Shown: one piece after another, positions 22,594 through 61,407 of the stretch | Layout of the letters: every line of letters starts with the position of its first letter | Position numbering within the stretch: the stretch's first letter is position 1 | NCBI GenBank assembly: GCA_037783545.1 | Contig: JBBELK010000067.1 | Span: 434,001 to 498,000 of the forward strand | DNA from: Henricia sp. BOLD:AAB3569 | Taxonomy: Eukaryota; Echinodermata; Asteroidea; Spinulosida; Echinasteridae | Length of the DNA stretch: 64,000 bases | Direction: 5' to 3' | The notes under the pieces: generated by a model | Database searches by the model: none | The model's input: only the letters and a program-made list of their open reading frames with translations | What the model was told of the DNA's origin: nothing | Made by a program: the position numbers and the translations under genes

Positions 22594-22666
22594 TCATACA
22601 GTAATCTTGACCATTCCTTGCACAGTGCTTGATGACGTCCCAGTTCGGTTGATTCTTTTTGCAGCC
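22594..22666 (-). CDS. NDE1: NDE1 terminal exon (probable)
   Basis: Acceptor tatttgtgtattag before 22666 in the needed phase; completes Arg and codes [20 protein letters not shown] then ITV and TGA. Chosen because phase, a pyrimidine-rich acceptor, length and the SSxxxGMxxxxV ending match the vertebrate C-terminus. Less certain than the other exons since the region is weakly conserved and more than 2 kb from exon 8. Confidence 0.7.
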
Positions 22667-25600
22667 CTAATACACAAATACAAGCAAAGTGAAATCCTGC
22701 TGTATTAGAAACAAGTGAACAGGTAGGAGCACTAATTATATAATATTGTATGGCTTGGGAAAGACATCCAATATTATTATTGTTATATAAATGAAGCTTT
22801 GTTTTGAAAGATTTCTGCGAGATTTTTTTCTGTTTGGCGTTGAAAACTTAAGTTTACAACTGCATGCGCTTTTGTTATTGTTGTACAGTATTTTTTGTTA
22901 TTATATAAAATGAAGCTTTTGCGGACACTGTGTGTTTCTGTTACTGTGCAGCACAGAGCCCAGATTCGATGTGCGTGCACGTTGGGCGCACCACGAACAC
23001 ACTGATAAGCGCGCGTCATGGATCGAGGGAATGGATTGCATGCGAGTGCAACGCGCGCCAGAGTACAGTAACAAAAAATACTGTACAACAGTAACAAAAG
23101 TGCATGCATTTGTAAACTGACGTTTTCAACACCAAACAGACAAAAATCTCGCAAAACAAAGCTTCATTTTATATAACAATAATAATATTGGATGTCTTTT
23201 CGGTATATTCTCATATCACCCTCAAAGCCATCCAATATTATATAATTACTGTACTCTTGTGCGCGTAGCACACACGTGCAGTCCATTCACTGGATGCACG
23301 CATACGCATGTGCTTGGCTGCGGCCAGCGTGCACACGCATCAGATTAGGGCTCTGTGCTGCACAGTATCAGAAACGCACGGTATCCGCAAAAGCTTCTTT
23401 TTATATACTAATAAGCATTACCGGTATTTAAAATAATTATTGCATTTATATATTGCACATTGCATATGATTATGCTCATGTGCACTGCACATTATAATAA
23501 TGGGTATATGAAACACAAAGGGGCTGTGTCATTGTTTGCGCATGCGCCAAAACTTTCCAATGTTTTGCTGTACGTACATGTGCGTGCGCACGCAGCTGTG
23601 TAGGGCCACTGTCATTGGTTATTTGCGTGCTTATTGAATGGGCGCGTTCCACGCGTCATGGATGCGCGCTGTTCGATTTAACAACAATACAAAACGCACA
23701 GTCCATGCAATGGATGGCTCCTAGCTATGGAAGGAGTCCCAAGTTACTGGATTTCTCTATATACGACAAATAAGTAACACTCAAAATTGTTGCATAATGT
23801 AGTTATCAGCGTGGTGTCCGGGTTTGTGGGGTCGCCACCTTATTCATCAGCTATTGTTTTTAATAGGGTGGCGGTGTCGCGGGCCTGGCGACAATGCCGA
23901 CATATGCGTTAGTATACAATGTACCATAATTATTAACTAAGGTTGCTAGATCTTGCATAAGCCTTGGCTTTTTATCTAGAATCCTATACACTTCGGCTCC
24001 GTTTGGGCGTGCAATTCTCGTTACTCGGGAGTAATGCGTGTGCATTGCACTCGGGTCACATCACGCGAACGGCAAGTCCGCAGTCCGCGTGCGGCGAAAG
24101 GCAATCAGTGAAGATTGCTGTCTCTTGCCATCACTGCACAAAAAATGCCGTTTCATTGCTCACAAGAAACTGAGGAAATACAGGCCGCAAGTCGTGAGAA
24201 CCTTTGATGCTGTCTAAAACAAACCTTAGTGAGTTGTTGTTTCAGTTATTGAGTTGACACGTTGAGCAAATTCACAAAAAATCCTACCCATATTCCTCCA
24301 TCTTCGTACAAATCACATGACACTTGTCAGGAGTAAGAGCACACTCCCCGTTTGTCGGGGAGTAGTTAGAGCATACTCTCACTGACCCGAGTGTCGTTAA
24401 TCTTGCCGTTCACGCGCACAGGAGTATACTCGTGTTAACACGAGTACACGCCCGAACGCAGCCTTCATGTGTACTTACTTTTCTGTAAATTGTCTTTTCA
24501 TATGAAAATATGTATTTTGCATGAATGTGTATGAAATGCACCATACCATACATGTACCATACCACACCATACAAAAAAAAAATCCAACACGAGTCTAACA
24601 AGTATCCTGACGATCCTCAGCGATTCTCAAAGAACTGACAATTGGGGGGAAATCAGGACCGACGATTGACATAGTGTATTAACCAATGCAGAAGTCCTTT
24701 GAACTTGGCCATGATACTAATTACCGATTCCCATCTTACAATCAAGCATAAACACCATTATAGTTGGTGTTAATCTGAAAACCTTACATTACCTTGGAGA
24801 CTCAACCGGACTGTTTGCTTTCCTCTGTTGCTCTCTTGTAAAGTTTCTACATGATGCTAGCTTGGACTCTAGTGCCTGAAAATAAACAAGTCAGCAGCAC
24901 TAGTATTAATAATTAACGTCATTTCTATGGAGGCGACAACAGTAGTAATATACAAATAATGTTTATGAGTTCAATTATACAATTCATATTTTCATGAGTT
25001 GAAAGATGGAATGTTCCATTCAACGAGGTGGAGCCGAGTTGAATGTAATAATTTCATCTTTCAACGAATAAAAATATTCGTTCCATTGAACGAGTGGAAA
25101 ATATTCATTATTCGTTTTTATATAACGCCCAAAGAGATCATTGTAATTTGATTGGAAAACACCCACCAGCCTGAAGATATGAACAAATACTTAAGACCCT
25201 AGTCCCTGACATCCCTCGTATCACAACGACCAAATCCGACTCTGCCACACGTGCGTCTTGCAATGTCACGCGCGTACACGAACACCGCTTGCATTAAACA
25301 TGCATGCACAGTGCGCATACCGTGCAATGTAAACAGGCGCGCCGTGCAATGGAAAAAATTGTATGGAACAAAAATGCACGGTTGGTGACGTAGCATTAAA
25401 TGGTTCAATTATTTAACGCCATGTGACCTGCTATCGTCCAATCAAATGACAGGGATCTACTTGGGCGTTATATCATTTGTTATGATCCACATTCTGCAAG
25501 TTCCTACCGTTAGATGTTCAGAAACTAAAGCCCCTTTTACACTTACACGATTTTGGATACGAACCTTTACGATTTTGAATCATGAGCTTTCGTAAGGGCA

Positions 25601-28600
25601 TTCGTAAAGACAATCGTAAACATTCTTAAACGTTCGTAATGATTCGTGTTGGTCGCAAAGTCATTACAAACTTTTTGGAATGTCATGTCTTCGCAACCGG
25701 TCGTAAGATTGTAATAAAGTCGTAATGTGTCTTAACAAGGTCGTAAATAATCCTAATGCATCGTGAAGGTTCTTAACCAATCCTTCAGCACTATTTCAAT
25801 ACGAGCTTTTAAGATCTTTTAAGTTTTCTTTATGATTTGATACAGATGTAATTAATTCACGTGATCGTCATTCACGTGATCGTCCAGGAAACAGAGAATC
25901 GCTTACAGGTCGCCAAAAATTGTAAAGAATCGCAAGCAATCGTAAGGGCATCGCATACGATCGTAAAAAGTCGTAAAGCAATCGGGATGCATTGTAAAAC
26001 GTCGCAATATGATCGCAAACATACGCAGTGTCGTATCAGATTCGCATCAACATCGCATTGAGGTCGTATGTGGTCTTGACCTGTTGTAACGGAATCGCAA
26101 TATGTTCTTTTCAGTCGTGTCCGTCACGGTAATTAGGGATTTCCAGGTTTTTTTCATTTCTATGTAATGCGATTCTTACGCCGTGTTGATTCGTATCGAT
26201 TCGTATCAAAAATCATGTAACTTGTGTAAACGAGGCTTAAACATATCTTAGCAGCGTGGAATGTCTGGATTAGATTAGAATTTGCTGTTTTACTTACCCC
26301 AACTTTTCTTAGCAGATCACCAACAATGGTAAGCGCTGTAACTCTAGCAGAAGGAGTAAGCGGTGTATTGCCAGTACTTCCACTTGAATCAGTTGCTGTT
26401 ATTCCTGAACAAAAAATAAACAAATCACCAAACTGAAGTTCAATATTGTATATACATATACTGTCAAATCTCAAAAACAGAAGCACGGTTAATTCAGCAT
26501 TTTGCTTAATAAGGGACCATTCCAAATAGTCAATGTTAAAACATTTTGATCTTTTTTCAAAATTGTGGGTGGGTCGGTCAAAAGAAATAACTGAAAATCT
26601 AAAGTCGTGCTTTGCTTCTTTCGACCTCATTGAACGTTGTTTCGATACCATTATACCCAACACGATATGGGACAAAGGGACTCCTTGCTGGGACAATATT
26701 TTTCAAAATCAGTTTCAACACCATTTATTTAGTAAATTTGTACCAATTTCGATTGCATTTGAACAGATACATTTAGAGTATTATATGGCAAAAATTACCA
26801 GTTTTGACCAAAAATGGTCAAAACAATTCCCCAAAATGGGTCATCATCATTGATGTGGCATATTCCGTCAATGTGAACAAGCAGAATCGGATTAAGCACG
26901 ATCGAATTAGTACCTAAATTTACTTGAAAGTTTTGTGCCCCCCAGACCCTATTCAACTAGAATTGACAGAGAAACTCTCTAAACACGACTTGCGTACAAA
27001 ACCGACCCTACCCCTAGACTAATCGGTGTTTTGACGATATCCTTGAAAATATATGTATTAAAGGGGCTATGTCACGGTTTGCGCATGCGCAGCAAAACTT
27101 GAAAAAGTGTGGCTAACTTTTTCAAGTTTTGTCGCCAGGTTTTGCATATCCTATTCAATCTTTGCCATCCCTTATAATTCTTTAGTAATTTTGGCAGTGG
27201 TGTACTTGTCAACGTCCAGGATGTCCTGATGCATTACTTTTTACTTGGAATCGCACTGTTTGCCGTATTTTTAAGCCGCCAAACATTGACATCACCATGT
27301 GTGCGGCCGTCGTTAAAAAGAGAGTTTTTTTCATCCCATCAAAAAACTCGACAAAACATGACAGAAACAGCATCGAATGATATGAATGACATGGTTGGAT
27401 ACAGCAATTTACTTAACCTAGTTTTCCATCAAAACTGACATGCTTATTTGGTCCTGACAATAATTTTACAGCATACCTTCTGTCCTTGGAAAGACACAGT
27501 GGCTGCCACCACTGTACGATTTTGTTTTTCCGTGCAATCGCGTGCGCGCAATGCCAAATCGAACAAATGCGCGCACACGATGCACAATGTAGTTGAATTC
27601 TGCGTATTGTAAACACTCATGAACGAACACACTGCCCATGCGGCACGTGCTAAGTACACGATGTACACAACTATAGCACATGCACCAATGGCGTTGTGTA
27701 ACGAAATTGCACTACATTCATCTGAGCCCGCACGTATGTCAAAATATGAAAGAAAAACCGTGACATAGCCCCTTTAAGAGCGTGAAATTTCAAAATGCTA
27801 ATGAGAAACATATGAGTGAACACATGAGTGAACACATGTGGGTAGAACCTTATATAAAGGCTCGAGGATTTCTTGAACGTTCTCGGTTAGAGCCCTATGC
27901 CATGTGCGATGGATCAAGTATCTCGGCAGTGCAGCTCGGAACCAACGTTTCTATGTTGTAGTCTACCTTTGGATGCGGATGTCGTGGCTGACACTCTACC
28001 TGGGGCTGTCGTGGCTAACCCTACAGTGTACTCGTCTGGCTGACCCTACCACTACCGTAAACTACCATGTAGCATTGCATGTTCTCGGAGACGTTGGCCC
28101 GATGACTGCACCGCAGTTTATGGGGCACTGACCGGGCGAGCCTATCCTGCTTAGTTCTTCATGAAGAGCAAGTTAGGTAATTATATTCGGCCGGCTATAA
28201 TTTTGCCACTTAATTGATTTATATTAATTGCTTATTGCATTTACAGTGGTCTTGCTAACTTGTGATTTAATTTGCTATACTGCTACTTTTACTTTTGCTT
28301 AGCTTAATTATTTGCTGATTGTTTTGCTTATATTTGCCTGGCCCATAATTAATTCATTACTCCTGCTTATTTTATGTTGACTTATGCTAACTAGCATGCC
28401 CAAGCAAGTTGCTCAATATGCATGAAGTTAATTTATTAATAAATAATTTCAGAATTGTATTTGCTTGTCATGAAATCGTTTGCTTTCAGAGTTGTTTTGC
28501 ATTGAAACTGTTTAGGCGAGTTTAATGTCTTTTGAACTCTTTCTGCCATGCGCCAGGGATTGGGGTCCTAGTCAGGAACTCATCCCGCTGTCACGTAACA

Positions 28601-31600: not shown

Positions 31601-34600
31601 ATGCAAGACCTTGTTGTCTATTTTAGGTTTCTGTGGAGTAACGTCCATCTTCTCACTGTCTGGTATAACCTGAGGAGGTCGCACTGTCATCATCTTGCCT
31701 TGAACTGCTAATTCGTGCGCCATATCTATTCAGCACAAAGAAAACATGTAAATAGTGAACAACTGCACAATGAACTTTCATAATAATAAAAATAATCTTC
31801 AATAGCGCCAAATGCCAGGGCCTCTAGGCGCTTTACACTGTAAAGTCAAAAACACATCAAGGGGATAAAATACAAAATTAAGAACAAGATTAAAAGTTAA
31901 ACACTTAAAAATACCAAAATGAGTACTCAAAAGCATCAAGACTGGTAATACTGAATACAAAGGTGTGTCTTAAGCTGGGACTTGAAATTACTGATGGAGT
32001 GAATTTGACGCATGCTGTTTAATAGGAAGACTGTTGCAGAGGTGTGCCGCTGCATAAACAAATGATCTGTCACCATAGAATTTTGTTGATGAGCGAACAC
32101 TACAGGTGCTCTCAGAGAGACTTGGATGGCGTATACAACTGGACAAGGTCGGAAAGATAATTGAAGCCATGTTATGGATGGCCTTGAAGGTAAGTAAAAT
32201 AATCTTGAATGCTAGTCTTTGCTTTTAAAATAGACTGCCGAAGTGAATACGTCATCTTTTGTTAGTTGCCTAGTCAATTGGCTCGAAACTAAAAATCACT
32301 CAACCGTGTCCCTGTGCTTTTGCAATGGTACTTTTTCCAACGTTCATGATAGTTCAGAGACAATTACCATGGCAACGCACGTCACACTTCGGCTGTCTAT
32401 TGGAAGCCAATGGAGCTGAAAAAGAACTAGTGTAATGTGCTCATGTCGAGAGACACGTGAAAAACAGCCCCCCGACAATGCCCGACGGTCCCACGACTGA
32501 CTTGTAACACACTCACGACATAACCACGACATATCTTTTTTTCTGTCGCGTCCCCATCGCTAAACCATCTTTAATGTGTCGTAGCCCTTGTGACCACTTG
32601 AAATAGATTTCGGGCATGCATGTTGCAAGATCTGGCCACGACAAATATTTTATGGGTCTACCAAGACAAAATTGTGTACGATCCGTTGTGCCCGGGGCTT
32701 TAAGGAGCCCACAGTTCTCCTGCATTTATTTGGACATTCTTGTTTCTTACCCCTTGCTTCATCCTTCATTCTCTGCACTGTGACTTCTAAACTCTCCTTT
32801 TCGTCAAGTTCATTCTCAAGAAATGCATTTCTCTCAATAGCCTGAAATATAATAAGCCAAGTCCAATGAAACCATTATGTGTGTCATTAACGGACCGTTT
32901 GCACTCGCTTCGCTTTGGGCAAATCGACTCCACAATTTCCAAAAAGGCAAGTTGAAGCCGGGTAGGCGCTAAGTGTAAATAAATGCAAAAGGTGTATTGA
33001 AAAAGGCGGATCTGACCTGGGTCTGTCCGTCTGTGTAAATTAATTAAACTCACCAAAATTTGATTGCCATTTTGCCATATTTTGCATTGTATTTTTGTAT
33101 GCATCGCATTGTTCATTCAAACTGCTAGCTGTACGTTGAGTGGTTTTTGTTCGATCCCGCGTGTTACGCGTAATGCAGACGTGTTGTACTCGCACGCACA
33201 CAACGGGGTACTTTGTACCTTTTTGCTTTTGAGTGTTGGCAGTTTCTGTGTGTGTGCGCGTGTTCTATACGCGCTGACTACATGTATGGCGCGGGCACAA
33301 ACGCGAGCCAGGCAATGAAGTGTTTGAACTAGCCGGCCGGTCTTTATCATCTAATTAAGACTGGCCACGTGACGTGCTCTCAGCCAATAGGGATGCGTAA
33401 ACTGTATAAGGTATTTATGAATATCTATTTATTAACTGTAATCATAGAACAACATTGTTCCCTGAGCAAGGCACTTGCAGCCACCTACATGTAGATGAAG
33501 CGAAATTGTTCTGGTGATTCCCTGATGGCAGCATTAATAATGCCAACAATGCCAGGAGTATCCTGCAGGGCAGACATGTGTGCTTTACAAGAATCCCTCG
33601 TTGTTGTTATTTAAATGTGATTATTATTAATAAGCGACCATTTCTATATTATCATTATTTTTATTTTTATTTTGGGTGGGGGTGGGGAGGGGGTGGAGGG
33701 GGTGAATTCTGTAATTCATTTATGGTATAGGCCTACTCACCAAATTTAACCTGGCTTCAAAGTCCTCTAGAGATGTAACTGTGGTTCTGTGGGTGAAAAC
33801 ATTGAAAAAAACTTAGTTTTTAGGAAAGGTTTAGGGAAAGGCTGTATGACTTAAAGGCACAGGCTCGTGAGCAATGCGCGCCCACCGAATGTGTGCCACG
33901 CAATACGCAGCTCCATAGCAAAGGCATGGAGCTGGGTGTTTCGAGCACAAATTTGGCGGGCGCGCATTGCTGACGAGCCTGTGCCTTTAAAGGGGCTGTG
34001 TCAAGGTTTGTGCATGCGCAGCAAAACTTGAAAAAGTTGGACTAACTTTTTCAAATGTTGTCCTATTCAATCCTATTCAATCTCTGCCATCCCTTATAAT
34101 TCTTTAGTAATTTTGGCAGTGGTGTACTTGTCAACGCCAAGGTTGTCCTGATGCATCACTTTTTACTTGAAATGGAGCCGTTTGCTGTATTTTTAAGCCG
34201 CAAAACATCAATATCACCTTGGCTGCTTTCGAGAGCGGCACCGGGTGCTCCATGGTGCTCCATGGTGCTCGCCCGAAAGCGTGTGTAAGCATGTGTGTGA
34301 CGTAACGTTTCCACCACCTGGGAGCACCAGGGACGAGCGCTCGAAAGCAGCCCAGGTGTGCGGCCGTCGTTCAAAAGAGAGCTTTTTCATCCCATCAAAA
34401 AAGTTGACAAAACACGACAGAAACGACATCGAATGATATGAATGACATGGTTGAATACAGCAATTTGTTCAACCTTGATTTCCACCAAAACTGGTATGCT
34501 TATTTGGTCCTGACAGACATTTTTTCCAGACATTGATCGCGCGTGCGCGATGCCAAATTGAAAGAAAGTGCGCAATTGCGCAACACGATGTACTATGTAG

Positions 34601-37600
34601 TTGAATTCTTCGTATTGTAAACACTCATGAATAAACACACACTGCCCATGCAGCACGTGCTAAGTACACGATGTACACAACCAATGGCGTTGTGTAACGA
34701 AATTGCACTACATTCATCTGAGCAGGCACGTATGTCAAAAATTGAAAGGATTTGGCGCATGCGCAAACCGTGACACAGCCCCTTTAACTTTTGTTTCAGA
34801 ACCACTGCCCTGGCAACTGACTAAAGGTGACATGCTCACTCTGGCTGCAATAGCTAGGGCCAGATTAGATTGATCTAATAAGCCCTGCCAATAAGGACAT
34901 GCATCTGGCAATAGGCCGTATCGAGTAGCCGCCATCTTGTGGGGCAGTTTCTTTGTTCCTTGAGGACATGCATGGTTGTACATATCCAGTGATCTCCACT
35001 GCCGGTTTTGTCCGGGGGCCCCGCCCGGACAAAATCATCACAGGTACCGTTAGTGCCCGGACAAAAATTTGCCGCCCGGACAAAAATAACAAATAATAAT
35101 CAATTTTCCCCTCTAAAACACTATGAAAGTACAGCCATTTCATTTCAAAGTTAGGTTCAAATTCTCCGAACGGGATTCGCTAGCCACTGATGGCATTTTC
35201 ATGATTATCGTTTACTTACCATCCACGCATATCTATCCGATCGGTGGCAGAGACCAAATGTGAATAAATTGGGATTGCTATTCAATGTGTGCAGTTCTCG
35301 CCAACTCTGTAACCTTGCCAAATTTATTAAGATTATTCTGACTAAGTTTCCGTAAACTCATTATTTGTTTGCTCTTATACATGTAGTTTGCATTTAACTT
35401 CCACTATTTAAAGTCTCATGTTTAAATTGTATTTTATTTTATTTTTTAGTTTTGATAATTAATGTTCTTTTTGTTTTATAGTTACTTAGCTTTTTATAGC
35501 ATAAAAAGTTTTGTAATTTAAGCTGGCTCTCATACCCCATGCTGGGGTCGCAGAGGTTAATAAACCATTTAAACCATTCAAACCATTCAAACCATCAGAA
35601 GCTACATGTACCCACGTATAGATGTGTATACACCCTGTTTACACTTGATCCCGAGCTCGGGGTCGAACACCGAGCTCGGGATCACTATCAGCCCCGGATC
35701 ACAAACTGAGTCTAAACGTTCTCTGGACCAAATTGGTCCCGGATCAGACCCCGAGATTTTGGTCTCGCGTTGGCTGAAGGTTCGATCCCGAGCTCGAGAT
35801 CAGTTTGCGGTTAGATAAGCAATTAATCTTTACCGTATCCTTCCGCATCCGCTCCACAGCCATAGCGAGGAAAAAGCCTGCGAAATTCAAGTGGCCTTGT
35901 ACACTGTACATGCACAACAACATGCACACATTGATCAGTACATGCACACACAGAGCATGACCTTTGACTGCAACTTCTGGCACCGCGCTCGAGATAAACT
36001 ACAGAATGTAAACGCGGCACTCGGGATCATTGCGGTTAACACTGATGCATTCTTATCAGGGGATCAATCTTGATCCAGAGCTTGGGACCAGTGTAAATAC
36101 AGTTATAATGCATTGATAATTCACTGACCTCTTGGCTCTCTCCAAGTCATCATTGTGTTGCTCCAATTCTCTGATATATTTGGCGAGTTCTTCACGAATC
36201 GCCTTGATCTGAGCTAATTCATCTTGAAGTTCATTGATTTGACGTAGATATTCATTTTGGGAGTGCTCTAACTTTTCCTGAAAGAAGAGAACGGAACAGA
36301 AAATGTCATTTTATTCATATAATCTGAGAGACCATTTATTGCTGGGATTATCTGGGAACAAAATAACCCCTGGTACAAAGTGATTTATCAAAAACTGTAT
36401 TAGAAAAAGCTAAGATACCCCTACTCCCCTGAACTCTGAACTTACTACGTCAGAGTTACTGAAATTTATCATCAATGCACCATACTTTACAGGAGTGTAG
36501 TAATGACTCAGACTCGAGACTCAGACTCGAGTCGACTCAAGTCCCGATTTGTACTGACTTGACTTGAGACTCGAACCTTAAATGACTTGATTTGACTTGA
36601 CTCGGACTTGTACATGTTTTGATTTGGGTCTACCAAAAATGAAATAAGCATTTTGCTTTTAAAGCATTTTTTGGTCATTTTGAGGACCGAATTGTTTTTT
36701 AAAACTGAAGCTTTCTTTTAACATGGAGCATTGTTGGCCAGAACAAAAAAAATACCCTACACAAATGCAGGATTCAGGGTTTAGACTCATTTTGAAATTA
36801 GCTTGAACAAATACTACTTGACTTGAACCGACTCGAACCGAACCGACTCGAACCTAGTTCGACTCGAACGAACCGACTCGACCAACATGCCTGACTTGTA
36901 TGCAGGAGGTCGTGGGTTCGAGTCCTACCCGAGCACGCTATGAAGTTTTTCATAGTGTCTCGGGAAAGCACTGAGTATACAGTGTTAATAATTACGTCGG
37001 GTAAGGGCAAAAACAACCTTACTTAAGATTCAATTTCCCCGACGCAAGTCTAAAATCAACTTATGACTAATTGCAATCCCCGTTGCGAAATGATTCGAAC
37101 CGGCCATTCAACACCGGCTAGCTCGGTGGTCGAGTGGTTAAGACGTCTGCCTTGTATGCAGGAGGTCGTGGGTTCGAGTCCCACCCGAGCACGCTATGAA
37201 GTTTTTCATAGTGTCTCGGGAAAGCACTGAGTATACAGTGTTAATAATTACGTCGGGTAAGGGCAAAAACAACCTTACTTAACATGCCTGACTTGACTTG
37301 ACTTGGAGGCCATTTGACTTGACTTGGGGCTCGAGCAGAGGGAGACTTGTTACAACTCTGCTTTACCTGTACAGTAAACTTTCGTTACTGCGCTCTTTGT
37401 AGAACTAAACTTATGTGAGCTCTATATCAATAGAGATCTACATCTATAACCAGGGGTCGATTTCACTAACGTTTACGATCCTTCGTAACTCGAGATGTAA
37501 TGGGTTACCGCTCGGTAACTCGTGTTGCGTCCTCGTAAATTTTGTGAATTTGCCAACGGAACATCAGCAGCCATTTGGTCAGTTCTGAACGGGAATGGAA

Positions 37601-43897: not shown

Positions 43898-44188
43898 CAC
43901 CAAAGCATCGCAAAACACCGCTAAGTCTGCATGCTGACCAGGGGTGGATCCAGGGGGGACGTGGGGGGCGCACGACCCACCACCCCCCCTTTTCAAAAGA
44001 AATAATAAAAAATTAAACAAATCCACTTTTTGTGCACACTTTTTCTGCTATTGCCCCAGATCGCACCACAGAATCCATCTAGAAGCCGTTAGGCCCCCCC
44101 TTTTCAAAATCCTGGATCCGTCCCTGCTGACACAGGCATAGTTCAAGTATTACTTGGATGCCTACAATATCGCTTTTTTTCATGGGGA

Positions 44189-44732: not shown

Positions 44733-45813
44733 GATGTCGCCAACAGTAAAATAATTTACTGACCTTTTACTAGTATTGGTTCCTCACAAAATAGTAAAAA
44801 TGCCATTAAAGACGGAGGCTCGTCAACGAATTTCACCGCGCTCCACACCTTGCCTGAGTAGGGTAGCTGCTTTTACAATCCCAGAGGGTGGAGGCTCATT
44901 ATTTATGCGAGCTCGCCACAGTGTATTACTGTTTATACGTTGCTAGGCTAATCGAATTAACCGGTTTCCGAATTAACCGTAAATTCCCATCCCTACAAAT
45001 GTTTTACCATTCATTCAACACAAAAACCGTACATGGATTTTTCAGGTTTTCCAAAGTATTACTGCATCTATGTGGTTGAAATTCCTACCGTAGAAGGCAG
45101 TTTATAAACAATATTCTTTAGTTATGTAATGTTGTTCCTGTTTTTAAAAGTTTTCCAATCATGTAATCTATCTTTAAAGGACGTGTGAAATAGGGTTTTT
45201 ATTAAATATAATAATAGTAGAGGGTGTGTTTTACACATTTTGGTCAATTTTCGCAAAATTTGATTGTTCCGTTTTGGTGTAATTGCAAGTTTTCTATTTT
45301 TATTCTAATGAGAATTTCCATATTCATGAGCAAATCCGTGATGTCATCTCAGGACAACAGAGGAAATCTCCATTGACTTGTGTACAAAAGATTTTGCCAT
45401 TTTCAGTGACTTCTTGGTGTTATGATCTGTATCAGTTTACTGAGTTTGTTTAGTATGTCATTTGCAACAATCCCAACAAGTTTGTTTGGGTCAGAAATGG
45501 ATCAGTGGGGTATCATTACAGTTTGAAATGTAATGTTCTTTCTTTGTTTTTCAACTGTGGGTTCCCTCCATGACTAGCAATAAACAGCGCCCTCGTCTGT
45601 CAAGAAAATTTTGAAGTAGAGAAAAGGTCACTTCTTTCTGAAATGAAAACAAATTTGAGTTTGCCCCTTTGTCTGCAACACTGTGATCTTCTGATTCGTG
45701 TATAAAAACAAATGGTTGATAATTTTCACTTCACTAAACCTTTAATACAAATAACATAAAACATGACATTTTGTGTTTCCCTAACACACAATCTTTTAAT
45801 CAGTTAAAGAATC

Positions 45814-47140: not shown

Positions 47141-50100
47141 GTAAGAACAGCTTTGCTTTTCCTAAAACACAAGCATGTACCCATGCTTTCAGTTGTGCAA
47201 GAATTATCTTGGTATTTTTCTGGAATTTAACTGTTGAAGTTGACAGTTCATATAATTATAACCCCTTTGCAGTGGCTAACCATTTTCCAATTTATTCCTC
47301 TGGAGCGGGAGGCTGCACTTGTAGTTTTGGGGGCAAGAGACTTGATAACTAAATTTAATTTGGAATTTTTTTTTTTCATATACGTTGAACACGGATTTCG
47401 ATGAATTTATATATTGGAATCGATAGCTTATTCAATTCTAAGATATACTTCCCACTGACACTTCCGTCGCAAATGTTGCATTTCTGAGATAAATAAATGA
47501 TAAAATTACTGCATGAAGTAATGCAAAAAATTACGTGGCGAGCGGTCTGTGCGTAAGTGCGACAACAGAGGACACTGCGCGCACGCGTGAATGGTTATCT
47601 TGTGCACTAACTGAAGGCAATTTTTGAAGAAGAAAATGTGATTTTTCTCCACAAAAGTGCAAGTGGGAAGTATATATCTTAAAATTACATTATATGTTAA
47701 TTTCCTTAAAATCTCTGTTCAATGTATACAAAAAAAATACCTTTAATTTCAAGTCGTAAATCAATTTTATTTCCTAAGTCTGGTCACAAGTCATTTTCAT
47801 CCAGAGTCAAGTCACAGGTAAAAAAACAAAAACTGACTTGAGCCCAAGCCAACAGGTTGAGAGACCAGCAGCCGATTTTACGAATCCTTACGCACTGCGT
47901 AAGCCCGCTTGCGCAACTTTGTATTGCGTAAGCTGCGCAACATTCATGTGATAATTACACGCAAGCCTATGGGGCTTATGCCATTTTCAAAAATTGCGCA
48001 AGCTACGAAATCTTTCGTGAAATTGGCTGCTGCTGCTCTGGTAGTACTGACCCATGGGCTAATTCTGTATAACTGCCCCCAAGACACACTTAAAACTGCA
48101 TACAATGTATGCAGTTCCAGTTTCGAAACCTAATTTCTCTTGCTAAAGCTCCATTTTCTTGTAAAATCTATTTGTTTTAATGTGGACTTTAATGTTAAAT
48201 GTCAACATCAACAAAATTAACGGGACATACCGGCTTTGTTGGGTTATTTTGGGATCGAAATAGACTCATACATGTACATGATTCTGAAAGTCTTTCTGAA
48301 ATAGACTGAAGAGAACCTAAAAAGAAACCCCAAAATTTTGCCGTTTTTGAGCAATTTTCAAAAATCAAGGTCGCGTGATTTATCCGAACCAGATTTCTAA
48401 ATTTCGCCCTAAAAACAGTGTTTTTTTCAAAACGAGCTCGTCAAATTTACATGTGTTAAGGCGTGAAAAGCTCAGTGTGAACACAGCTAGCCTTAATCAA
48501 GCGAAACTAAATTGTCTGACATTGTGAGAAAGGAGATCACAAAGGGGATCACTGTAGAAATAGTTTTCGAGTATCCAGCATTCTTTTGGCAGTTATTAGT
48601 GCAGGTGCATCCTTAATAAGTTAGCATTTCTTTAATAAAGACGGAGGCTCGTCAATGCACAACGAGCAAATTTGTGCCATGAAATTCACAATGCTCCATA
48701 CCTTGGAGGACCACTCAAGATGCTGGCTGACTAGTCAAGATGTAACCACAGTGGTCCGGGTGGCCAGTGTTAAAAAAAGTTATGGGGAATCCCTGGTAGT
48801 ACAGTTGTGGGGTGTTATAGCCGAGCGGTCTAGTGCGTCGAACTTAAGTTCCTGTGCTAGTACTAGAATGTAGGTTCGATTCCGGGCCGCGACGGGTTGT
48901 GGCACCTGTGCCCCTGAGCAAGGCACTCAACCACACTTGCTCCCATTCCTGTAATTGGCGGTCCCTCCGCTGTTGGATGTGGTGAATGAATAAATAAATA
49001 AATAAATAAAAATAAATAAGTATGTTGAATGGTTTTGCTGAACAGTTGTGCTTTGTGGAAGATCCAATACAATACTGTTAAAGTACTAATCAGTTGATCA
49101 ATTCCTTTTTGCTCTTTTCAGGTGATGAAAATTCCCGTCCAATCGGAGTCTTTTGGGATATTGAGAACTGTGCCGTGCCTCGGGGCAAGTCAGCCTTGGT
49201 CGTTGTGCAGAGTATTAGAGATCGGTTCTTTGCCAATCATAGAGAAGCAGAGTTCATGTGTGTGTGTGACATCAACAAGCAGAATGCAACGGTAATCCAA
49301 GAACTCAATGATGCGCAGGTAATGAGCTTTCATATTGTACTCCATTTTGTGACTCCATTTCTAGACCTCACTGAAATGCACAAAGCCTTAACATCGACGT
49401 CATCACGCCGCAGTCCACATAGTTGACGTGACAATCAAAAACTCCCTATTGAGAGCTAGGGTGAAGACACGGGAAACAAAGTGCCCCAGGTGCAATATTC
49501 AGGTTTTCCCCCCACATTATTGAAGTGTAAATGAGTTTATTGAAGCCTATGATTTGTATTTTGTGAAGAATGCTTCAGGAACATTCACTACAAATAACGA
49601 AAATGGAGTTGAATGTTGTATCGGTGAAAATGAAGTTTAAATTTTAAATACTTGTAAAAACAAACCGAATCGGCAAAAACCGTTTAATGCCGATTCTCCT
49701 AATAGAAACGCACTCATTTATGTGACCCGCTCTGGAAAATGGAGTTTATAATGCTGCACAGTCTGGTTGAACTTTTTCTAATCATAACCAGAAATCCGTT
49801 TAGTCATTTCACAAATTTGACTAATGGTGATCTTTGAGTGATGAAGCTCAAACCTGCCCATTGGTTCAACCAGAAGCACATTTTAGTTATCGTCACAAAA
49901 ACCCCAGCCCAGGTCTAGGCTGTGCAATATTGGACGCATGCATGCAGAGCAGTTTAAAGGAACACACCGGCTAACTGTTTACATAATTTAGTGATGTAGC
50001 ATCATTGACAATATTTTTTTGATTGTTCTCGTGAAAAAAGATCATCAAAATGTCCTGTAATTAACTGAAAAAAATTAAAATAAACAAAAACAGTCAATAG

Positions 50101-53100
50101 TCGGGTTATACGCTTTACCAGCCGTTCACTATCGCGCGAGCCTCACGACTTTGTAGCAAACGATTCGCTCTTCACTTGATAGCTTTTGCTTTGGATATCT
50201 CTTATTTTCTGCTGATTATTTCACTGGACAGCCCGGACCACCGAATGGGTTTTTCCGTTTCTTTGGAGGAGCTGACATTTATGGTTTGTTTTCACGAACA
50301 TACAACTACCGGTAGCAACCGGCTGTTGTGACAGTTCCGCGTACGTGGAGCTACCGGTAGAGTAGGTGTACAGACTAAAACACCTAATGACGAAACACAC
50401 CTGGCAGTCTGGCTCCAAGAACCACGACACCGTACCGGTCGCAGTGTGTGTGTGCCATGGGGCTAAATGTCACGTTCACCCGTGCACTGTCCACTGTAAA
50501 ACTCGCTTCGGTTCCTCAGATTTTTTGAGTCAAAATTTTATTTCGATTTTTCTTAGTTATGTTTAACTTTGTTTCATATTAAACCATCCTGAGATCTCAG
50601 GGAATTTCCACTCTGCAAAGCGACGTGACAATACCCTGAGGATATACACGCAAATCTGTGGAGCGAGCCGGCTGTTGTCTTGAGCCAACTCACGCCCGAG
50701 TCATTTTGATGTAATTTAATCAATTTGGTCATGTTATGCCGAAAAGAAAAAATTTCTATACTTTCCAGAAATTGTATTGGGTTCCCTTCCTTATGACTGT
50801 CCCATTCCTACCAAACTTTCAAACAACGAACCTTATTTACTCCGCAGTTTTTCAAATTAATAACAGGGATGCATGCTGACGAATAATTGCCGACGCGGAC
50901 AACGGCCAGCATTACCGAGTACATGTATCACATGCATGCACGTTGTTTACAATCTGCGCGCGTTACATTTGAATGCCTGCAATCGTGCTGCAATGCACTG
51001 CAAGCGTCCTGATTGGTCCAACAGAGGCGACAAGATTTCTGTCGCTAGTCCCACTGCCAAATGGGGCCTTTTTCAACAGGGCCACTGTACGCAGGAGTTA
51101 GGGAGTGCGTTAAAGGGGCACTGTTGCAAGAGGATGTATTAAACCTGAATAAATACAGTAGTTCTTTTGTCAAATACTAATAAATATTTTGAGCTGAATT
51201 TGATTATCAGAGCTGAATTTTATGCAGTACTGCAGTAATAAACTTTCATACGGCTGGAAATAAAACTAACTCCAAAAACATGTGACCTTGATTTTTTTTA
51301 AAATGCTCAAAAATGGCAAAATTCGGTGGTTTCTTTTCAGGACTACTTCACTCTATTTCAGAAAGACCTTTAGAATCATGGTCTATTTCAAACCCAAAAT
51401 AGCCCGACAAAGCCGGTGTGTTCCTTTAACATATATATTTTTCATTGATTGTATTGATGTACAAATAGAAACCTTTAGGTACTTATAATAGGATTGATAG
51501 GCATACTCTGTTGTTCTGTAGGTGACTGTGGCTCACATCAATGCAACAGCCAAGAATGCAGCTGATGATAAACTCAAACAGAGTTTGCGTCGATTTGCCG
51601 ACACACACAACCCACCTGCAACCGTTGTTCTTATATCAGGTATGTGGTTTGTATCACTTATTGAGAATATATAGCCCAACCAGTAAACGATGTTGTGCTA
51701 TTGTGGCAAGTATGTTTTGCATCAATTGCTCTTTTGAACGTTGACACAATACAACATCCAGTCCTGTTGACCATGTTGACCAGTTCACACTTAAAGGGCC
51801 CCTTATTTAGGATTTTTATCAATGAAATCTATGCTTTAAAACCACTCTACTCAGTTAAAGTCATAAAAATTCTATTTGGAGCTTGCTTTGGGGGTTAAAA
51901 CAAAGGTTTTTAGTTTTTATGCTAATGAAAATATGCATATTCATGACCAAGGTCACATTCAACTGTGCACAAAAGATTCCACTTTTTTCTCAATTTTCCT
52001 GAAACTTGTAATCCATGGCTGTTTGAGTTTGTTTTACATGTTGCCTGCTGTAAGCCATGACAAAACTGGGGGTAGAAACTGCAGCAATTTGCCAAGTCCA
52101 ACTTGAAGTCTTATGTTTTTTCTTAACTTTTCCCTTCTGTCTTCCTTACGTGATGCACTCCAAACAGCGCCCTCTGTCTGTGATTTATTGCAATGAAATC
52201 TTTAAAGTTGAAAAAGGCCACCTTTTATTGATTTTACATCCAAACGAACAATAGTATGTCTTGCTGAACAAGTAATCCGTCATTATGAAGCAAAGCTTAG
52301 GCACAAAGTTGTTTAGCATGTCACAGGCCCTTTAAGATTTGTATCATCCTACACATGCTGAGTAACTCAAAAGGACATGCAGAAATTGGACCATAAAACA
52401 GCTTTAAGCCTGGTTTAATACTTCATACATCTGATGTCAAACGTTGAAGTGAAAACTTTGCTGTGAGGTCAAATTCATGTTTGCTTTCGTGTGAAATATG
52501 AACTGGACTTTAGGCTGTCAATGCAGTCACTCTCGACTCCCCATTGGGTGGCACACGGAAAAAAAATGTGATTTCATGTGGGGCAGCATGGCTGAGAGGT
52601 GTAGCATGTTGAATCCAAGACTATGGTAAATCCACAGGTCAAATCCCATCCCGGCTTGTCCATGGTGCGTGTGCTCTTGGGCAAGGCACTTTGCCATGAA
52701 TTGCCCCTCTACACCCAGGAGGAAATGGGTATCTGTGAGGGTAGAGAAAGCTTAGTCCTTGTGCACACAAGCAGCATGGGACTGTACATGTATACTCCAC
52801 AGGGAGTTGGAAGGATTAAGGAATGATATTACTGAGCCCAATGACCAGGGGTAATAATGCAGAAAGCGCATTGAGAGATCGGGAGATCTGAAATGCGCTA
52901 TATAAGAACTGCCTATTATTAATATTATGTACTCACTCTGCCATGTCTTTGTAGATCTTTTAGCTTGCCTTCCTGAGCGATGGTAACTAACGCACAAATG
53001 TATTGCTGAAATAGAAATCTATCCAAACTTAGTGAGCAATGTAATTGAAGTTAATGATAGTTTTTATATCAGTGAAATCGGCCCCTGGTTTTAATATATC

Positions 53101-56100
53101 GGTGGTCACATTTTTAATAAATGTTAACGTGTTTACTGTGCACATTTGTGGTTTATTAGTACCAGGGTTGTACATGTAGTTGAGTCTATCATAAGTCCCT
53201 GGGTCTTAATTCAAGTCACAAGCTATTCAAATGAACTCCAAAAAAATGCATTCTTTTGTGCATGTTCATCCTTCTTGTGACGGACTTGTGCGGGACTTGT
53301 ACAACTTAGTACAACTTGGTGGTTTTTGCATACTTCAGGTGATATCAACTTTGCTCGAGACTTGTCGGACTTGCGTCATCGCAAAAACTTGCGAGTCATT
53401 CTCGTTCATCGAGACGAAGCTTCAGAGGCACTCTTGGCATGTGCTAATGAGGCAGTTAGATACCAAGACATGGTCCAGGAATTGCCCTTCAGGTCACCAG
53501 TCAAGGTGCGTAGATTCCCCGATCTAGAGAGTCTTTGTAGATCAAATTCTATTAAATAAATACTCATCTGCTGTCCCACGATGTGGCCTCTAAGGCTGGC
53601 TACATCATGAGACAGCAGATGAGTATGTTTATTGCGATTACCACGATGAATACATTTGATTGTTCTTAACCCATTCGCAATGGGGAACTGCATATGCAGT
53701 TTTAAGTGCGAGTGTCTTGGGGCGGTTGTACATAATTAGCCAATGGGTCAGTACTACCAGGGCAGAGCAACAGCTGATTTCACGAAACTTACGCTGCGAT
53801 GGGATTAACAGAGATTCACCATAAAATTATGAGTAATGTTTTGACTTTGCTCATCTCACACGCAAAGCAAATTACTCATATAGCACCTTATTATTTCCCC
53901 TCATACCTCATACCCTCCGACAGTGTGACTGTCCCCCCCCCCCCCCCCCCCCCCCACCCCCCCCCACCCCCCCGTCATGGCCGCCCCTGCAAGGGGTCTA
54001 TACATTCACATTTAATTTTTGTAATTGCAGGCTGCTGTGGAAAGTTCCACTCTTATTGTTCACAATCTTCCAAGTCGTAAAGATGTTACTCAACTGCGGA
54101 ATCGTCTCAAACAGCTCTCGGATAATTGCGGGGGTAAAGTGGTCCACGTGTCATTCAAGAATGCTGTCATCCAGTTCCCCACTGCAGAAAATGCAAGCAG
54201 GTAAATACCAGTTACTGGAAGTAGTTCTTAAAAGTAGTCCTTCAAAATATGAGGCGAATTTTTAATCGCCATTGATCATCTTGTATCAGTAACCTAATCT
54301 TGCTACAAATATAAGGCAATAAAATTATGTTATCCAGTTGATGCGAGAATTATTTTTCGCAAAAACAATTGTTTTTTTTTAAAAGGCAGATGTGCTTGGC
54401 CAAATATTAAGACCTGGGGCCAATTTCATAGAGCTGCTTAAGCATTACAAATTGCTTAAGCATGAAAAACCTTGCTTGATAAAACGAAGTTACCAGCAAC
54501 AATTTCATGAGATTTTCATGGTAATGAAACAGTTCTCTAACACTGGTCATACACTATTTCTATCACATGAAGATTTCACTGGTAACATTCTCTACTAAGA
54601 AAGAGTTTTTTGTACTTAAGCAAATTTTCGTGCTTAAACACCTCTATGAAATTGGCCCCTGGTCAAGCGCCACAAATACTGACTCTTGGGAGTCATTTCT
54701 ACATTTATTGTAGAATTTTCTCACCAAAAGATCATACTTTGCAACATTCTAAGGCTGCCGCCACGGAACGAGATTTGCTACACTGACAGGCCGTCAACAG
54801 CCGTCAAGTACTGTAAAAGCCAATATTTTCGCGTACAGATATTTTCGCGCATTTCAACATCACTGACATTTTTGCGAGTTGTTATTTTCGCGGATGGAAA
54901 TCATGTCACCTTAACAGGGATCGCCACAATTGTTGCAAACAATATTTTCGCGGGTTGTTATTTTCGCTGGCTCTGTCTGGTGCGCGAAATGCACGAAAAT
55001 AAAACCACCGCGAATATTTCAGCTTTTACAGTACACATTGTGTACAAATAAATGGTGTTCTGTGAAAGACAGCTCAGCAAAGAGCATCTGACGAATTAAT
55101 TCGTCTACTGCCCCTGTGACTATACATTGCCAGAACGTGTTTATACGTTAAGAGTTCATTTGCAAACACAGATAAGTGCCGTTCAAGATATCTCAATGCA
55201 GTAGAAGTGACTTGATTTTACCAAATTAATACCTTTCTTTTACATTTTGCTTGATATTTTCTGAAATGTACATAAAAAAAATCACGAGCTACATAAAAAA
55301 TATTAATTGTGAAGTCTCTGATTTTTAGCGGATTTCCTCTTTTTTGTTGTGTGTTTTCTGATCCACATTTCCGCTTTTTTGCCCTTCCAGCGGGCCATAT
55401 TTTTGTTAACGAGCGCCCTCAATTGATTCCGTAATTTTACGAACCAAACTTGTGCAAGTCTAGTCGCCCCTCAAGTGCCATGACATAGAGCGCTGTACCA
55501 TGTATGTATGTATTGTTCCGCTCTACGAGCAGACCGAGACTGCAACGAGTAGCGAAGCAGACGTGTACAAGTCTAATCCCTAAGAAAGCGCCATCTTTGC
55601 CTGCATAGTAAACTGGCAACAGTCATGCATTGCGTGTGGTGTGTAATGCATGTACGTGTGCAGTGCGCAGCTAGCGCGATGCGGCAAGCAGTAGGCAACG
55701 AACGATTTTACTCTCCGCTTTTGCCTCACCGTCTTCGACGATCAATGTTGCCTAGATTCTTTTTAATATTATCCACATTTGTACAAGGTAAATATTTAAA
55801 ACAAAACTGGTTCTTGTCATACCTGGTTAAACTTTTTTTGACATTGCAATTTGCACGATGGTGGTGTTTAAAACGATCCCAAAAGCTCAAATCTTTATAG
55901 TCTCTACGTCTCTTCCCCGCCCCCTCCCCCAAGGAAGCCAGGCCCCTTCCGATTTTGTTCTTCCGGAGTTTTTGTTTTCCTCCAATCTCACCCTGAGCGC
56001 TTATCTGTTTTTGCAAATGATCTCTTCACGTGTTTACACGTCCTCTGGCGTCAAGTGGTTAAATTTTTACTTGATTTGACCAGAGCCAAGATCAGACTAG

Positions 56101-59100: not shown

Positions 59101-61407
59101 TCTCTTTCAAGCTAGGTGGATGAAACTGTTTGTTCAAGAAGAGTTCCAATACGATTACCCGACTGTTTATATCTTAGTGTGACGTGAGTTTGGTTGGCGG
59201 ATCGTATGGGCGACGAATTTTTGACGTTGTTTGTTGATGTACGTGATCAGATCACTCGTGTTGCAAAGGTTGAGGATGCGCTCGTTGGTCAGGACTAGAC
59301 GGAAGTCGTGCTCGTGCTCGTTGCGTCGCTAACCCTCCTTGAATCATGCGACGTAGAAATTGCATGTGCGTGCTGTTAAGTTTGCATGTTTGTTTGCTGG
59401 TTATAGCGTCCAGGTTTGACTTGCATACATGTATGTGAGACGACTCCGGCTGCAACATGATAAAGGTCTATAGGGTACTAAAGTGAAAACTTGTCTGTTG
59501 CCAAAGGGTCTACAGTACTCGGTAAAGACTAAAATCAATAAAGTGTTTCCCTGGGCTTTAGCAATAGAAATTTCCGATAATCAGTGAGCGTTTAGACTTA
59601 GTTATACATGTACCAGCAACTGATGTCACGCTATGGTAGACTCGTTTCTGCTGAGTGTGATTACCGTTTCAGAAATGCTTCAGTACTGTTAATCAATCTA
59701 GTAGAAACGGCTTTCAACAGTTATATGCCAATGCATAAACCCTGCTCGAAGAAGGTTTTACCACTGTGCACAACGGTATTTTCGCAGTTGAAATGGCCGA
59801 TAATACTCTTTTTCATAGGGCAGTGACATCATTTTATTAGGGCAGGCTAAAAGAACTAGGGGTTGATGTCAAGTTTCCTGGGAAAAAAATTCATATACAT
59901 GTACGTGTTCGTCAGTTGAGACTCCATGCACTATTAAAGTCTATAGACTGCCAAAGTGAATACATCTTCTTTTGTTGGTTGCCTAGGCAATGCATAGTTC
60001 CGAGTTTGCCTAGTTAGCGCCGCCCCCTTGGATATTGTTGCTATGGCTCACACGCTATCGTCAAAATGTCGTCACACACTGCACAAAGCAATGGGACTTT
60101 CAACGGAAAGCACAGATTCATTGGAGAAAACTCAAAGGTATTCATGTTTCAGGGTCGACAGTTATCTTAGAACACACTGAGTAAAGGGCCAGTAATACAG
60201 GGATGTCATATAATGACATACGTGCTTTCGTACCTTTGAACAACGAAACGACCGGCCTTGAAACCAAATTTTCACCCGGATCGTCGCATACAACACTGTA
60301 CAAATTATATGGGGCCGGCAGAACATATCGCGTGATCATGTTGTTGTGAGACAGTGCACTTTTACCTATGTGGGTGATGTCTGCTAGCTCTGTTGTGATT
60401 GGTCGGCGGGTTCGGTTGATTGACAGGTCGGAACTATGCATTGGCTCTAAACTAAAAATCACTGGAATATGTCCCTGTGCTTTGCAATGGTACTTTTTCC
60501 TACGGCCATGATAGTTTAGAGCAAATTGCCATGGCAACCCACGTCACACTTCGGCTGTCTATAGAGTATGACATAAAAATCTAAAGTAAATTTGTGTTTA
60601 TCACCAATTTTACATTTTCTAGACTAATTATTTTGTCATATTGTGACAAATTAATGATGAACGTGTATGGAATTTATACTGTTTACTGCTGTCAGAGGGT
60701 TGAGAATGAAACTAAATTTATCGTGATCTTTGAATTGTTTCTTTCCAGAGGAGCTAGCAACCTCTTCAGCGCCCCAGCATGCAGGCAATATTGATGTCTT
60801 TAAGCCAAGCTGTGCGATCAGACCATGTCATTCTGATAGTCCTAAACTGGATCCCTCCCAGCTTCAAACATCAGCTAGTCGAATAGCTGCAGCTTTCAGA
60901 CCCATACAGCACGACCGAGGTCACACAGAAACGGACAAACACAAGCAAGTTGTTGAGATCTGGCCACGGCAGACATACCCCGATACTAACACCCACGCTG
61001 GGATTTCTACTGCCTCAAAGATGAACTGGCAATCATTGTACACACAGACTTGCATCCTGCCAGTAAACACACAACAGAGAGCATTCAATGATGACATCCG
61101 ACCCGGTCTCGTGCCTTTCAAACCGATCCCAACCGTTCAGCGTATTCCCACTCCTCCAGTAGCTCTTAATGCATGGAACAGATCACAGTGTGAGCAGACA
61201 GTGCCCTCGCCCACCCTAAGAGGAATCTATCGACCACCGTCTCCAATGCTAGCTAATCCTATGGGTGATTGGCAATACATGTCTATCCAGGACTCTGATA
61301 GTAGCGCTAGGAAAGGAGCTGAACTATTGGTGACGAACTTGGACAATAAAATGTCAAGGGAGGAGTTGAAACAGTGCTTGCTAGCAAAACTCAAGGATCA
61401 CTGCAAG
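45814..61407 (+). CDS. MARF1: MARF1/limkain-b1, first seven coding exons
   Basis: Gene-level entry; 3' part lies beyond the window. Seven phase-consistent exons give 956 residues. Residues 69-90 are strongly basic (KRKKKKGK). About 180-440 is rich in Cys, His, Ser, Pro and Gln without a known fold. The NYN/PIN-like RNase domain spans about 450-603, with candidate metal-binding Asp at 455 (VFWDIEN), 492 (CVCDINK), 549 (SGDINFA) and 555/558 ([10 protein letters not shown]). RRM1 follows ([14 protein letters not shown] ... KISVAYPKN, about 608-685), then an acidic and Pro-rich linker, and the first half of RRM2 ([20 protein letters not shown], from about 928). MARF1 is a ribonuclease needed for mouse oocyte meiosis and retrotransposon silencing; the LOTUS repeats should lie downstream. 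Confidence 0.96.
47362..47741. mobile_element. Family F MITE, copy 3 (perfect 8-bp TSD)
   Basis: Flanked by tttaattt at 47354-47361 and 47742-47749. Same interior as 17587-17998, including cgagcggtctgtgcgtaag. Confidence 0.92.
48810..49020 (+). repeat. tRNA-Leu-like SINE with (aaat)n tail
   Basis: Head tatagccgagcggtctag and box B aggttcgattccgggcc with a long variable arm, body gagcaaggcactcaacc, tail of repeated aaat units at 48988-49019. Confidence 0.82.
49122..49318 (+). CDS. MARF1: MARF1 exon 2 (NYN domain start)
   Basis: Acceptor gctcttttcag; completes Cys, then [20 protein letters not shown] ... [15 protein letters not shown] ... ELNDAQ; donor GTAATG. Near-identical to vertebrate MARF1 here. 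Confidence 0.97.
49958..51425. mobile_element. Family D element (TTAA) with a nested element
   Basis: TTAA at 49954-49957 and 51426-51429; ends aggaacacaccggct and gccggtgtgttcct. 50588-51134 is a second element whose inverse copy is at 62206-62783. Another D copy is at 57190-57978; fragments at 4441 and 48220. Confidence 0.85.
50588..51134 (+). mobile_element. Family E element nested in family D
   Basis: Starts ctgagatctcagggaatttc, includes cggacaacggccagcatta and gattggtccaacagaggcga, ends gttaaaggggcactgttgca. Inverse copy, about 85% alike by eye, at 62206-62783. Confidence 0.75.
51522..51639 (+). CDS. MARF1: MARF1 exon 3
   Basis: Acceptor tgttctgtag; [20 protein letters not shown] then [19 protein letters not shown] plus G; donor [28 protein letters not shown] is conserved in the family. 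Confidence 0.97.
51640..53338 (+). other. MARF1 intron 3: TTAA element and SINE
   Basis: 51795-52331 is an element between TTAA sites (agggccccttattt and complement at ends). 52570-52925 is a SINE. 53190-53310 carries acttgtacaactt simple repeats just before the acceptor. Confidence 0.75.
52570..52925 (+). repeat. tRNA-derived SINE with gcgctatataagaac tail
   Basis: Head gcatggctgagaggtgtagc, box B-like caggtcaaatcccatcc, body gggcaaggcactttgcc, 3' end cagaaagcgcattgagag ... aatgcgctatataagaactg and tattattaat. I associate this 3' end with echinoderm SINEs. Confidence 0.8.
53339..53505 (+). CDS. MARF1: MARF1 exon 4 (NYN domain end)
   Basis: Acceptor gcatacttcag; completes Gly, then [55 protein letters not shown]; donor GTGCGT. 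Confidence 0.97.
53933..53973 (+). repeat. C-rich tract with two A interruptions
   Basis: About 41 bp of C broken by A twice, 58 bp upstream of the MARF1 exon 5 acceptor. Confidence 0.95.
54031..54200 (+). CDS. MARF1: MARF1 exon 5 (RRM1, first part)
   Basis: Acceptor gtaattgcag; [20 protein letters not shown] ... [20 protein letters not shown] ... [13 protein letters not shown] plus AG; donor GTAAAT. LxVYNLPxxxD and [13 protein letters not shown] are conserved. Confidence 0.96.
54413..54662. mobile_element. MITE with cctggggccaatttcat ends
   Basis: cctggggccaatttcatag at the left, ctatgaaattggcccctgg at the right, interior gcttaagcat words. This type is widespread in echinoderm DNA as I recall. 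Half-copies of the gatttc/gcccctgg end occur elsewhere in the window (53080, 30430). Confidence 0.82.
54809..55033. mobile_element. MITE with tactgtaaaagc ends, copy 3 (best preserved)
   Basis: tactgtaaaagccaatattt and the complement of gcttttacagta, TIRs of about 25 bp. Interior attttcgcgggttgttatt. Confidence 0.9.
55034..56083 (+). other. MARF1 intron 5 remainder, nothing assigned
   Basis: AT-rich, then a GC-richer stretch around 55440-55750 without repeat ends I recognise. No extra exon seen. Confidence 0.5.
56084..56313 (+). CDS. MARF1: MARF1 exon 6 (RRM1 end, acidic linker)
   Basis: Acceptor ttgatttgaccag; completes Arg, then [24 protein letters not shown] split by the linker [14 protein letters not shown]; ends CAA plus G; donor [16 protein letters not shown] matches EDVFGNRIIVSF in vertebrates. 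Confidence 0.93.
57190..57978. mobile_element. Family D element, copy 2 (TTAA)
   Basis: TTAA at 57186-57189 and 57979-57982; ends aggaacacaccagct and agccggtgtgtccct. Confidence 0.85.
57761..57837. repeat. Hairpin with about 32-bp arms
   Basis: cgtcgcaaagctgacatagt gacgaatatgca at the left, tgcatattcgtcactatgtc agttttgcgacg at the right, one mismatch, about 13 bp loop. Lies inside family D copy 2. Confidence 0.9.
59946..60559. mobile_element. Family J MITE, long copy with nested element
   Basis: Flanked by TATA at both ends (TA target); gactgccaaagtg and complement of gacagccgaagtg. Compared with the short copy at 32233-32397, 59991-60440 is extra and is bounded by tgcatagttccg and cggaactatgca. 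Confidence 0.82.
60749..61407 (+). CDS. MARF1: MARF1 exon 7 (linker and RRM2 start)
   Basis: Acceptor tttctttccag; completes Glu, then [17 protein letters not shown] and a long polar, Pro-rich linker ending [31 protein letters not shown] in frame; donor GTAAGT. The second RRM's first strand and helix match ADVQVSNIDYRLSRKELQQ of vertebrates. Confidence 0.93.

Follow-up and report, generated by a model that had tools for sequence, protein, structure and literature searches.

In a 64 000-nucleotide stretch of the genome of the sea star Henricia sp. (positions 434001–498000 of contig JBBELK010000067.1, hereafter C67), two genes that we identify by sequence likeness as NudE and MARF1 lie next to each other and point in opposite directions, NudE on the minus strand and MARF1 on the plus strand. 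We refer to the whole stretch as the window, and positions are given in its coordinates unless a contig is named. We confirmed that the adjacency and the divergence of the two genes are real and match the arrangement of NDE1 and MARF1 at human 16p13.11. An ancient linkage of NudE and MARF1 is well supported and likely. The best explanation that we can offer, in which the pair was inherited and regulatory DNA between the genes serves both of them, has as a whole an even chance of being correct.

Adjacency and divergence on two contigs

A profile search of the assembly (740.7 Mb, 2104 contigs) returned two NUDE_C matches genome-wide, one on C67 and one on a second contig, C1038, and the genome-wide matches of the MARF1 NYN exon also numbered two, again on C67 and C1038. 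The two contigs are collinear in reverse orientation, with ~88–99% identity in the main blocks and 80% in one 1-kb block, and the first NYN exon has an identical frame of 114 amino acids (aa) on both. They look like two haplotypes of one locus, and NudE and MARF1 are each present at a single locus in the assembly. On both contigs the two genes are adjacent and divergent, and the distance between their ATG codons is 4500 bp on C67 (positions 41314–45813) and 3936 bp on C1038. Because the same arrangement was found on both contigs, despite substitutions and insertions that distinguish them, we give practically no credence to the possibility that an assembly artefact joined the two genes.

Assuming ~25,000 genes and random placement, we estimated the chance that MARF1 is the divergent 5' neighbour of NudE at 1/25000 × 1/2, or ~2e-5, which makes inheritance of the pair the likeliest account. 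Common inheritance, as we infer it, would reach back at least to the ancestor that echinoderms and vertebrates share, and would predate the split of NDE1 and NDEL1 in vertebrates. An independent origin of the adjacency in each of the two lineages, sea star and vertebrate, gains some weight from the fact that only these two were compared and that the pair was chosen after a handful of gene pairs. However, the chance is still below 1e-4 when a few examined pairs are allowed for, and such a coincidence is very improbable.

Identity of the NudE gene

The minus-strand gene is, judged by its similarity to known proteins, NudE, the orthologue of NDE1/NDEL1. At least seven coding exons with splice signals could be placed in order, down to ~24.79 kb. 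Exon 1 (41228–41313) has its ATG at exactly 41313, where the initial annotation had put the start of the gene, and carries the donor GTAAGT. It is in frame with exon 2 (39388–39541; coiled coil, acceptor TTTCAG, weak donor GTTAAT, in-frame join), exon 3 (36129–36277; coiled coil), exon 4 (33741–33786; acceptor CACAG, donor GTGAGT, in-frame join) and exon 5 (32751–32841), where the NUDE_C domain starts, so that exons 1–5 form one open frame. Exon 6 (26298–26404) has splice signals and joins in frame to exon 7 (24789–24875; use of the donor would end it at 24793, use of the stop at 24789), and these two form another open frame. Further exons may lie between exons 5 and 6 or past exon 7.

By database comparison, the NudE-specific exons are exons 3 and 5 only. 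Exon 3 matched PDB entries 2v66 (NDEL1; E = 1.3e-13) and 7e1t (NDE1; E = 9.3e-10), and this likeness predicts an N-terminal coiled coil of the LIS1/dynein-binding type. The open reading frame (ORF) of exon 5 (32653–32874) matched Pfam NUDE_C (E = 6.4e-12; 46.7 bits against a cutoff of 30.9) with residues 11–47 of this single exon ORF, covering positions 11–51 of the 177 in the profile; the remaining profile positions had no match. Seven Pfam matches of coiled-coil type were obtained for the exon 2 ORF and 38 for the exon 3 ORF, all of them below the cutoff among the matches listed, and the long ORF of exon 6 had no Pfam match. Exons 1, 2, 4, 6 and 7 were assigned by their likeness to human NDE1.

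Within a NudE intron, a tRNA-Thr (TGT) was predicted at 37120–37192 with 60 bits. It overlaps a duplicated segment (36884–37029 and 37140–37285) and is possibly a tRNA-derived repeat.

Identity of the MARF1 gene

The plus-strand gene is, by the same kind of comparison, MARF1. A MARF1-type NYN RNase domain is predicted from matches to PDB entries 6fdl and 5yaa and is spread over three exons: part 1 (49122–49318) matched human MARF1 in 6fdl at E = 3.1e-28, part 2 (51522–51639) has splice signals and a Pfam NYN match at E = 0.0029, and part 3 (53339–53505) matched 6fdl at E = 4.3e-14. For parts 1 and 2, the matches to Pfam NYN stay below the Pfam cutoff. The exon that follows (54031–54200) encodes the putative first RRM, with a match to Pfam RRM_MARF1 above the cutoff (E = 8e-10). 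Farther downstream, an ORF at 60727–61458 likely holds a MARF1 exon with the start of the second RRM; it showed a weak match to PDB 2dgx (KIAA0430; E = 0.052), and its sole Pfam match was Octopine_DH, below the cutoff (E = 0.018).

We propose 45804–47140 as the first coding exon, with the ATG at 45814, the start given in the initial annotation. The ORF from this ATG had no Pfam match. Its assignment to MARF1 is based on an in-frame splice that joins 47140 to 49122 with no intervening stop, and on a frame that stays open in the two haplotypes (512 and 523 aa). The differences between the haplotypes in this exon comprise 10 synonymous and 15 other changes, with no strong coding signal. The gene does not end at 61407, as had been annotated, since it runs beyond the window: all three downstream ORFs that we chose by eye exceeded the cutoff for LOTUS/OST-HTH (PF12872), and these LOTUS exons lie outside the window, at places that correspond to ~88.9, 93.5 and 96.0 kb in its coordinates. 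The last MARF1 exon is probably located near 102.9 kb (window coordinates), judged by resemblance.

When the NYN exon was compared with prokaryotic and viral collections, a single match over 29 residues was found, in Lokiarchaeota, and none in viruses. This short NYN-like match (positions 10001–10087 of a Lokiarchaeota contig) has 45% identity to query residues 18–46.

The interval between the start codons

We recognized no third gene between the start codons: the 19 ORFs of 60 aa and longer that overlap 41314–45813, the MARF1 ORF aside, were all below the Pfam cutoffs, in a scan that genes made of short exons alone could escape. Eighteen of these ORFs were without a Pfam match at E 0.01, and the remaining one had a sub-cutoff match to DUF1106 within a foldback repeat.

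This self-inverted, MITE-like repeat (41976–42379) was not aligned by blastn on C1038, which has ~164 bp there in place of 439. Its relatives are found at 17587–17991, at 47370–47741 and left of the window; the family has a length of ~400 bp, and while one copy lies between the genes, the copy at 47370–47741 stands directly past the proposed first MARF1 exon. Two inverted-repeat elements follow in the interval. The first (43603–43897) is located in a region that cannot be aligned between the haplotypes, with no alignment to C1038 at 43.6–44.1 kb, and the second (44188–44732) is present on both. Closer to MARF1, a 568-bp insertion-like segment (45171–45738) is absent from the C1038 haplotype at this place, and a related copy occurs at C1038:228510–229086 (86.7%).

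In the alignable parts, the haplotypes mismatched at 9 of 671 positions in 41200–41899, 19 of 818 in 42400–43299 and 10 of 800 in 44200–44999, with 5–8% in bins at 43300–43599 and 8 of 400 where the MARF1 exon begins (45800–46199). This divergence is uninformative for or against promoter constraint.

Proposed regulatory DNA serving both genes, or passive retention

We propose that regulatory DNA between the genes would start both of them, NudE leftward and MARF1 rightward. Our best guess for its site is the CpG-rich stretch beside NudE (~41.4–42.9 kb), in which positions 41400–42900 form a CpG-undepleted candidate promoter region. The observed/expected CpG ratio was at the 70th–99th percentile for segments centred at 41500–42800, relative to the 154 kb examined, and dropped to the 6th–14th percentile at 43.0–43.2 kb and to the 2nd–31st at 45.2–45.8 kb. 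At the other end of the interval, both haplotypes, which differ slightly here, have a polypyrimidine-rich tract with an AG that precedes the MARF1 ATG by 10 bp, and this acceptor-like site fits a noncoding exon upstream. A 5' noncoding exon of MARF1 would splice to the site, which ends at 45803, and insertions would later, together with such 5' noncoding exons, have widened the distance between the start codons. The CpG stretch and the acceptor-like site would fit a MARF1 5' exon near NudE, and it is there that we infer the start sites to be.

We also scored donor sites with a weight matrix and considered those with scores above 2.0. Three were found on the plus strand, at 43092 (3.4), 45223 (3.1, within the 568-bp insertion) and 42775 (2.5), and those at 43092 and 42775 are present on both haplotypes. 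On the same scale, the donors of three coding exons at the locus scored 0.3, 3.5 and 4.6.

Several observations weigh against this proposal. The CpG peak is formed in part by the foldback repeat (41976–42379), which is CpG-rich, the low-CpG stretch at 45.2–45.7 kb is the haplotype-specific insertion, and CpG is also high at 40.5–41.2 and 43.5–43.8 kb; for these reasons we take the peak as a hint only. The minus strand has ten donors with scores above 2.0, the best of which (6.4, at 44374) lies within a repeat but is present on both haplotypes. By this measure, a 5' exon of NudE located far to the right has no less support than one of MARF1 close to NudE, which counts against a promoter near NudE. 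A scan of the interval for 24 motif patterns gave two that exceeded expectation, namely a YY1-like site at 42822 (1 versus 0.12 expected, both haplotypes) and half-CRE sites (2 versus 0.34 expected, in a context that differs on C1038), an excess without significance when 24 patterns are tested. The start codons are 3.9–4.5 kb apart, and the usual limit for the start sites of bidirectional pairs is 1 kb. In addition, the interval contains insertion-like differences between the haplotypes, and the basis of the proposal is genomic sequence of the sea star together with the published human gene order.

The rival explanation is passive retention, in which the two genes would be ancestral neighbours that were never separated, each with its own promoter and without a regulatory tie. 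The distance between the start codons, the tolerance of insertions, the weakness of any motif signal and a haplotype mismatch in the interval that resembles that of the first MARF1 exon, with no sign of extra constraint, all agree with it. However, the local gene order seems to have changed, which speaks against neighbours that merely stayed in place. We took the Pfam families PF01576 (myosin tail), PF12130 (bMERB), PF09398 (FOP_dimer) and PF04117 (Mpv17) to stand for human 16p13.11 neighbour genes, and none of the four had a match on C67 (1.12 Mb) or C1038 (0.55 Mb), for PF01576 among the candidates scored; any looser linkage to the human neighbours would lie beyond the reach of these contigs. 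Elsewhere in the assembly, PF01576 had at least 38 matches on C870, C438, C274, C245 and C803 (43 of 66 candidates scored), PF12130 five on C38 and C372, PF09398 two on C821 and C152, and PF04117 six on C384, C720, C564 and C15. The list of 16p13.11 genes was drawn from passages of PMC4170211.

A second point against passive retention is that conserved divergent pairs are uncommon. According to passages of PMC3024869 and PMC12672016, divergent pairs that persist over long evolutionary distances are few and tend to positive co-expression; in the survey of PMC3024869, mouse, chicken and fugu retained 14 of the 1447 head-to-head pairs found in human. Overall, we regard passive retention as a serious possibility that falls somewhat short of an even chance, and weighed directly against it, regulatory DNA serving both genes stands at about even odds. 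The initial annotation had read the persistence of the pair as a sign of a shared promoter or of co-regulation. The ancient pair itself withstood the analysis, given the adjacency, the strands and the chance estimate, whereas a shared promoter or co-regulation is a proposal at most, with the distance and the tolerated insertions speaking against it.

It is rather unlikely, in our judgement, that a bidirectional promoter of NudE and MARF1 predates the echinoderm–vertebrate split, which would make the human 16p13.11 pair a relic of an ancient regulatory unit and not a vertebrate novelty. Equally doubtful is the corollary that such a shared promoter would tie a regulator of dynein to an RNase with oocyte and neural roles. 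Besides acting in oocytes, MARF1 promotes cortical neurogenesis, according to passages of PMC5430739, and those of PMC7775536 describe NDE1 as needed for cortical development; with both genes acting in cortical development, a functional tie is thinkable. Copy number of 16p13.11 is linked to human brain disorders, and shared control, if true, would bear on how dosage acts there. If the arrangement is general, the pair would be among the few divergent pairs kept from invertebrate deuterostomes to human, and it offers a simple test case for what keeps gene pairs together over long times.

Other features of the window and the assembly

The mitochondrial genome (16,221 bp) is present once as contig C2104, and cox1 occurs three times at 16,221-bp spacing in contig C955, where the triple copy is probably an assembly artefact. 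We annotated its protein and tRNA genes, identifying cox1 by Pfam, the other protein genes by reading translations and the tRNAs by ARAGORN. The order on C2104 is cox1, trnR, nad4L, cox2, trnK, atp6, cox3, trnS (reversed), nad3, nad4, trnH, trnS, nad5, nad6 (reversed), cytb, trnF, and then trnE and trnT; before cox1, nad2 and nad1 are reversed, together with 9 of the 13 tRNAs in a cluster. We take this to be the sea star order, and it points to a sea star. Passages of PMC11423521 cite a reference that reports a major inversion in the mitochondrial DNA of sea stars, and those of PMC7947835 describe a stable asteroid mitochondrial order that differs from that of sea urchins in the positions of ND1 and 16S.

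At its left end (1–2190), the window contains 12.6 copies of a 174-bp unit, in a tandem array that extends left to ~C67:432085. The unit resembles a portion of a GH31-type exon, splice acceptor included, and the last copy continues into an apparent real exon. The two haplotypes seem to carry different numbers of copies, with ~23 in total on C67 versus ~7–8 on C1038 as estimated from BLAST extents. A run of 62 consecutive C bases is located at 8336–8397.

Comparison with human 16p13.11 and with known divergent pairs

Human MARF1 lies on the reverse strand, and the start sites of NDE1 and MARF1 are ~0.1 kb apart. The passages of PMC7775536 on the locus place human NDE1 on the forward strand at 16p13.11, between MARF1 and MYH11. 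Since MYH11 is the neighbour on the 3' side, MARF1 is the one on the 5' side. Those of PMC5430739 describe Marf1 as contiguous to miR-484 in 16p13.11. In the sea star, as in human, the orthologues adjoin, and MARF1 lies 5' of NDE1. With human MARF1 on the reverse strand, the divergence is shared as well. Unlike in human, the start codons in the sea star are 3.9–4.5 kb apart, and where human NDE1 has MYH11 on its 3' side, the NudE side in the sea star has a GH31 glycosidase gene, possibly not the immediate neighbour. An actin gene, also possibly not the immediate neighbour, lies past MARF1.

Divergent pairs have been described at several evolutionary depths. Passages of PMC12672016 count 66 human divergent pairs that are conserved in Drosophila, and those of PMC2670823 suggest that most human divergent pairs postdate the deuterostome–protostome split. 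Short divergent intergenic regions are, in the passages of PMC2871058 on this subject, enriched in land vertebrates and not in fishes or non-vertebrate animals, a pattern that advises caution in carrying the human promoter arrangement over to the sea star. Our literature search gave no report of the NudE–MARF1 pair outside vertebrates among its best matches, with supplementary tables not covered, and this is weak evidence for novelty. Compared with bidirectional pairs whose transcription start sites lie within 1 kb, the present pair is known by its start codons only, 4500 and 3936 bp apart, and either gene may have 5' noncoding exons. Like the head-to-head pairs that share a bidirectional promoter, NudE and MARF1 are adjacent and divergent with no recognisable gene between them.

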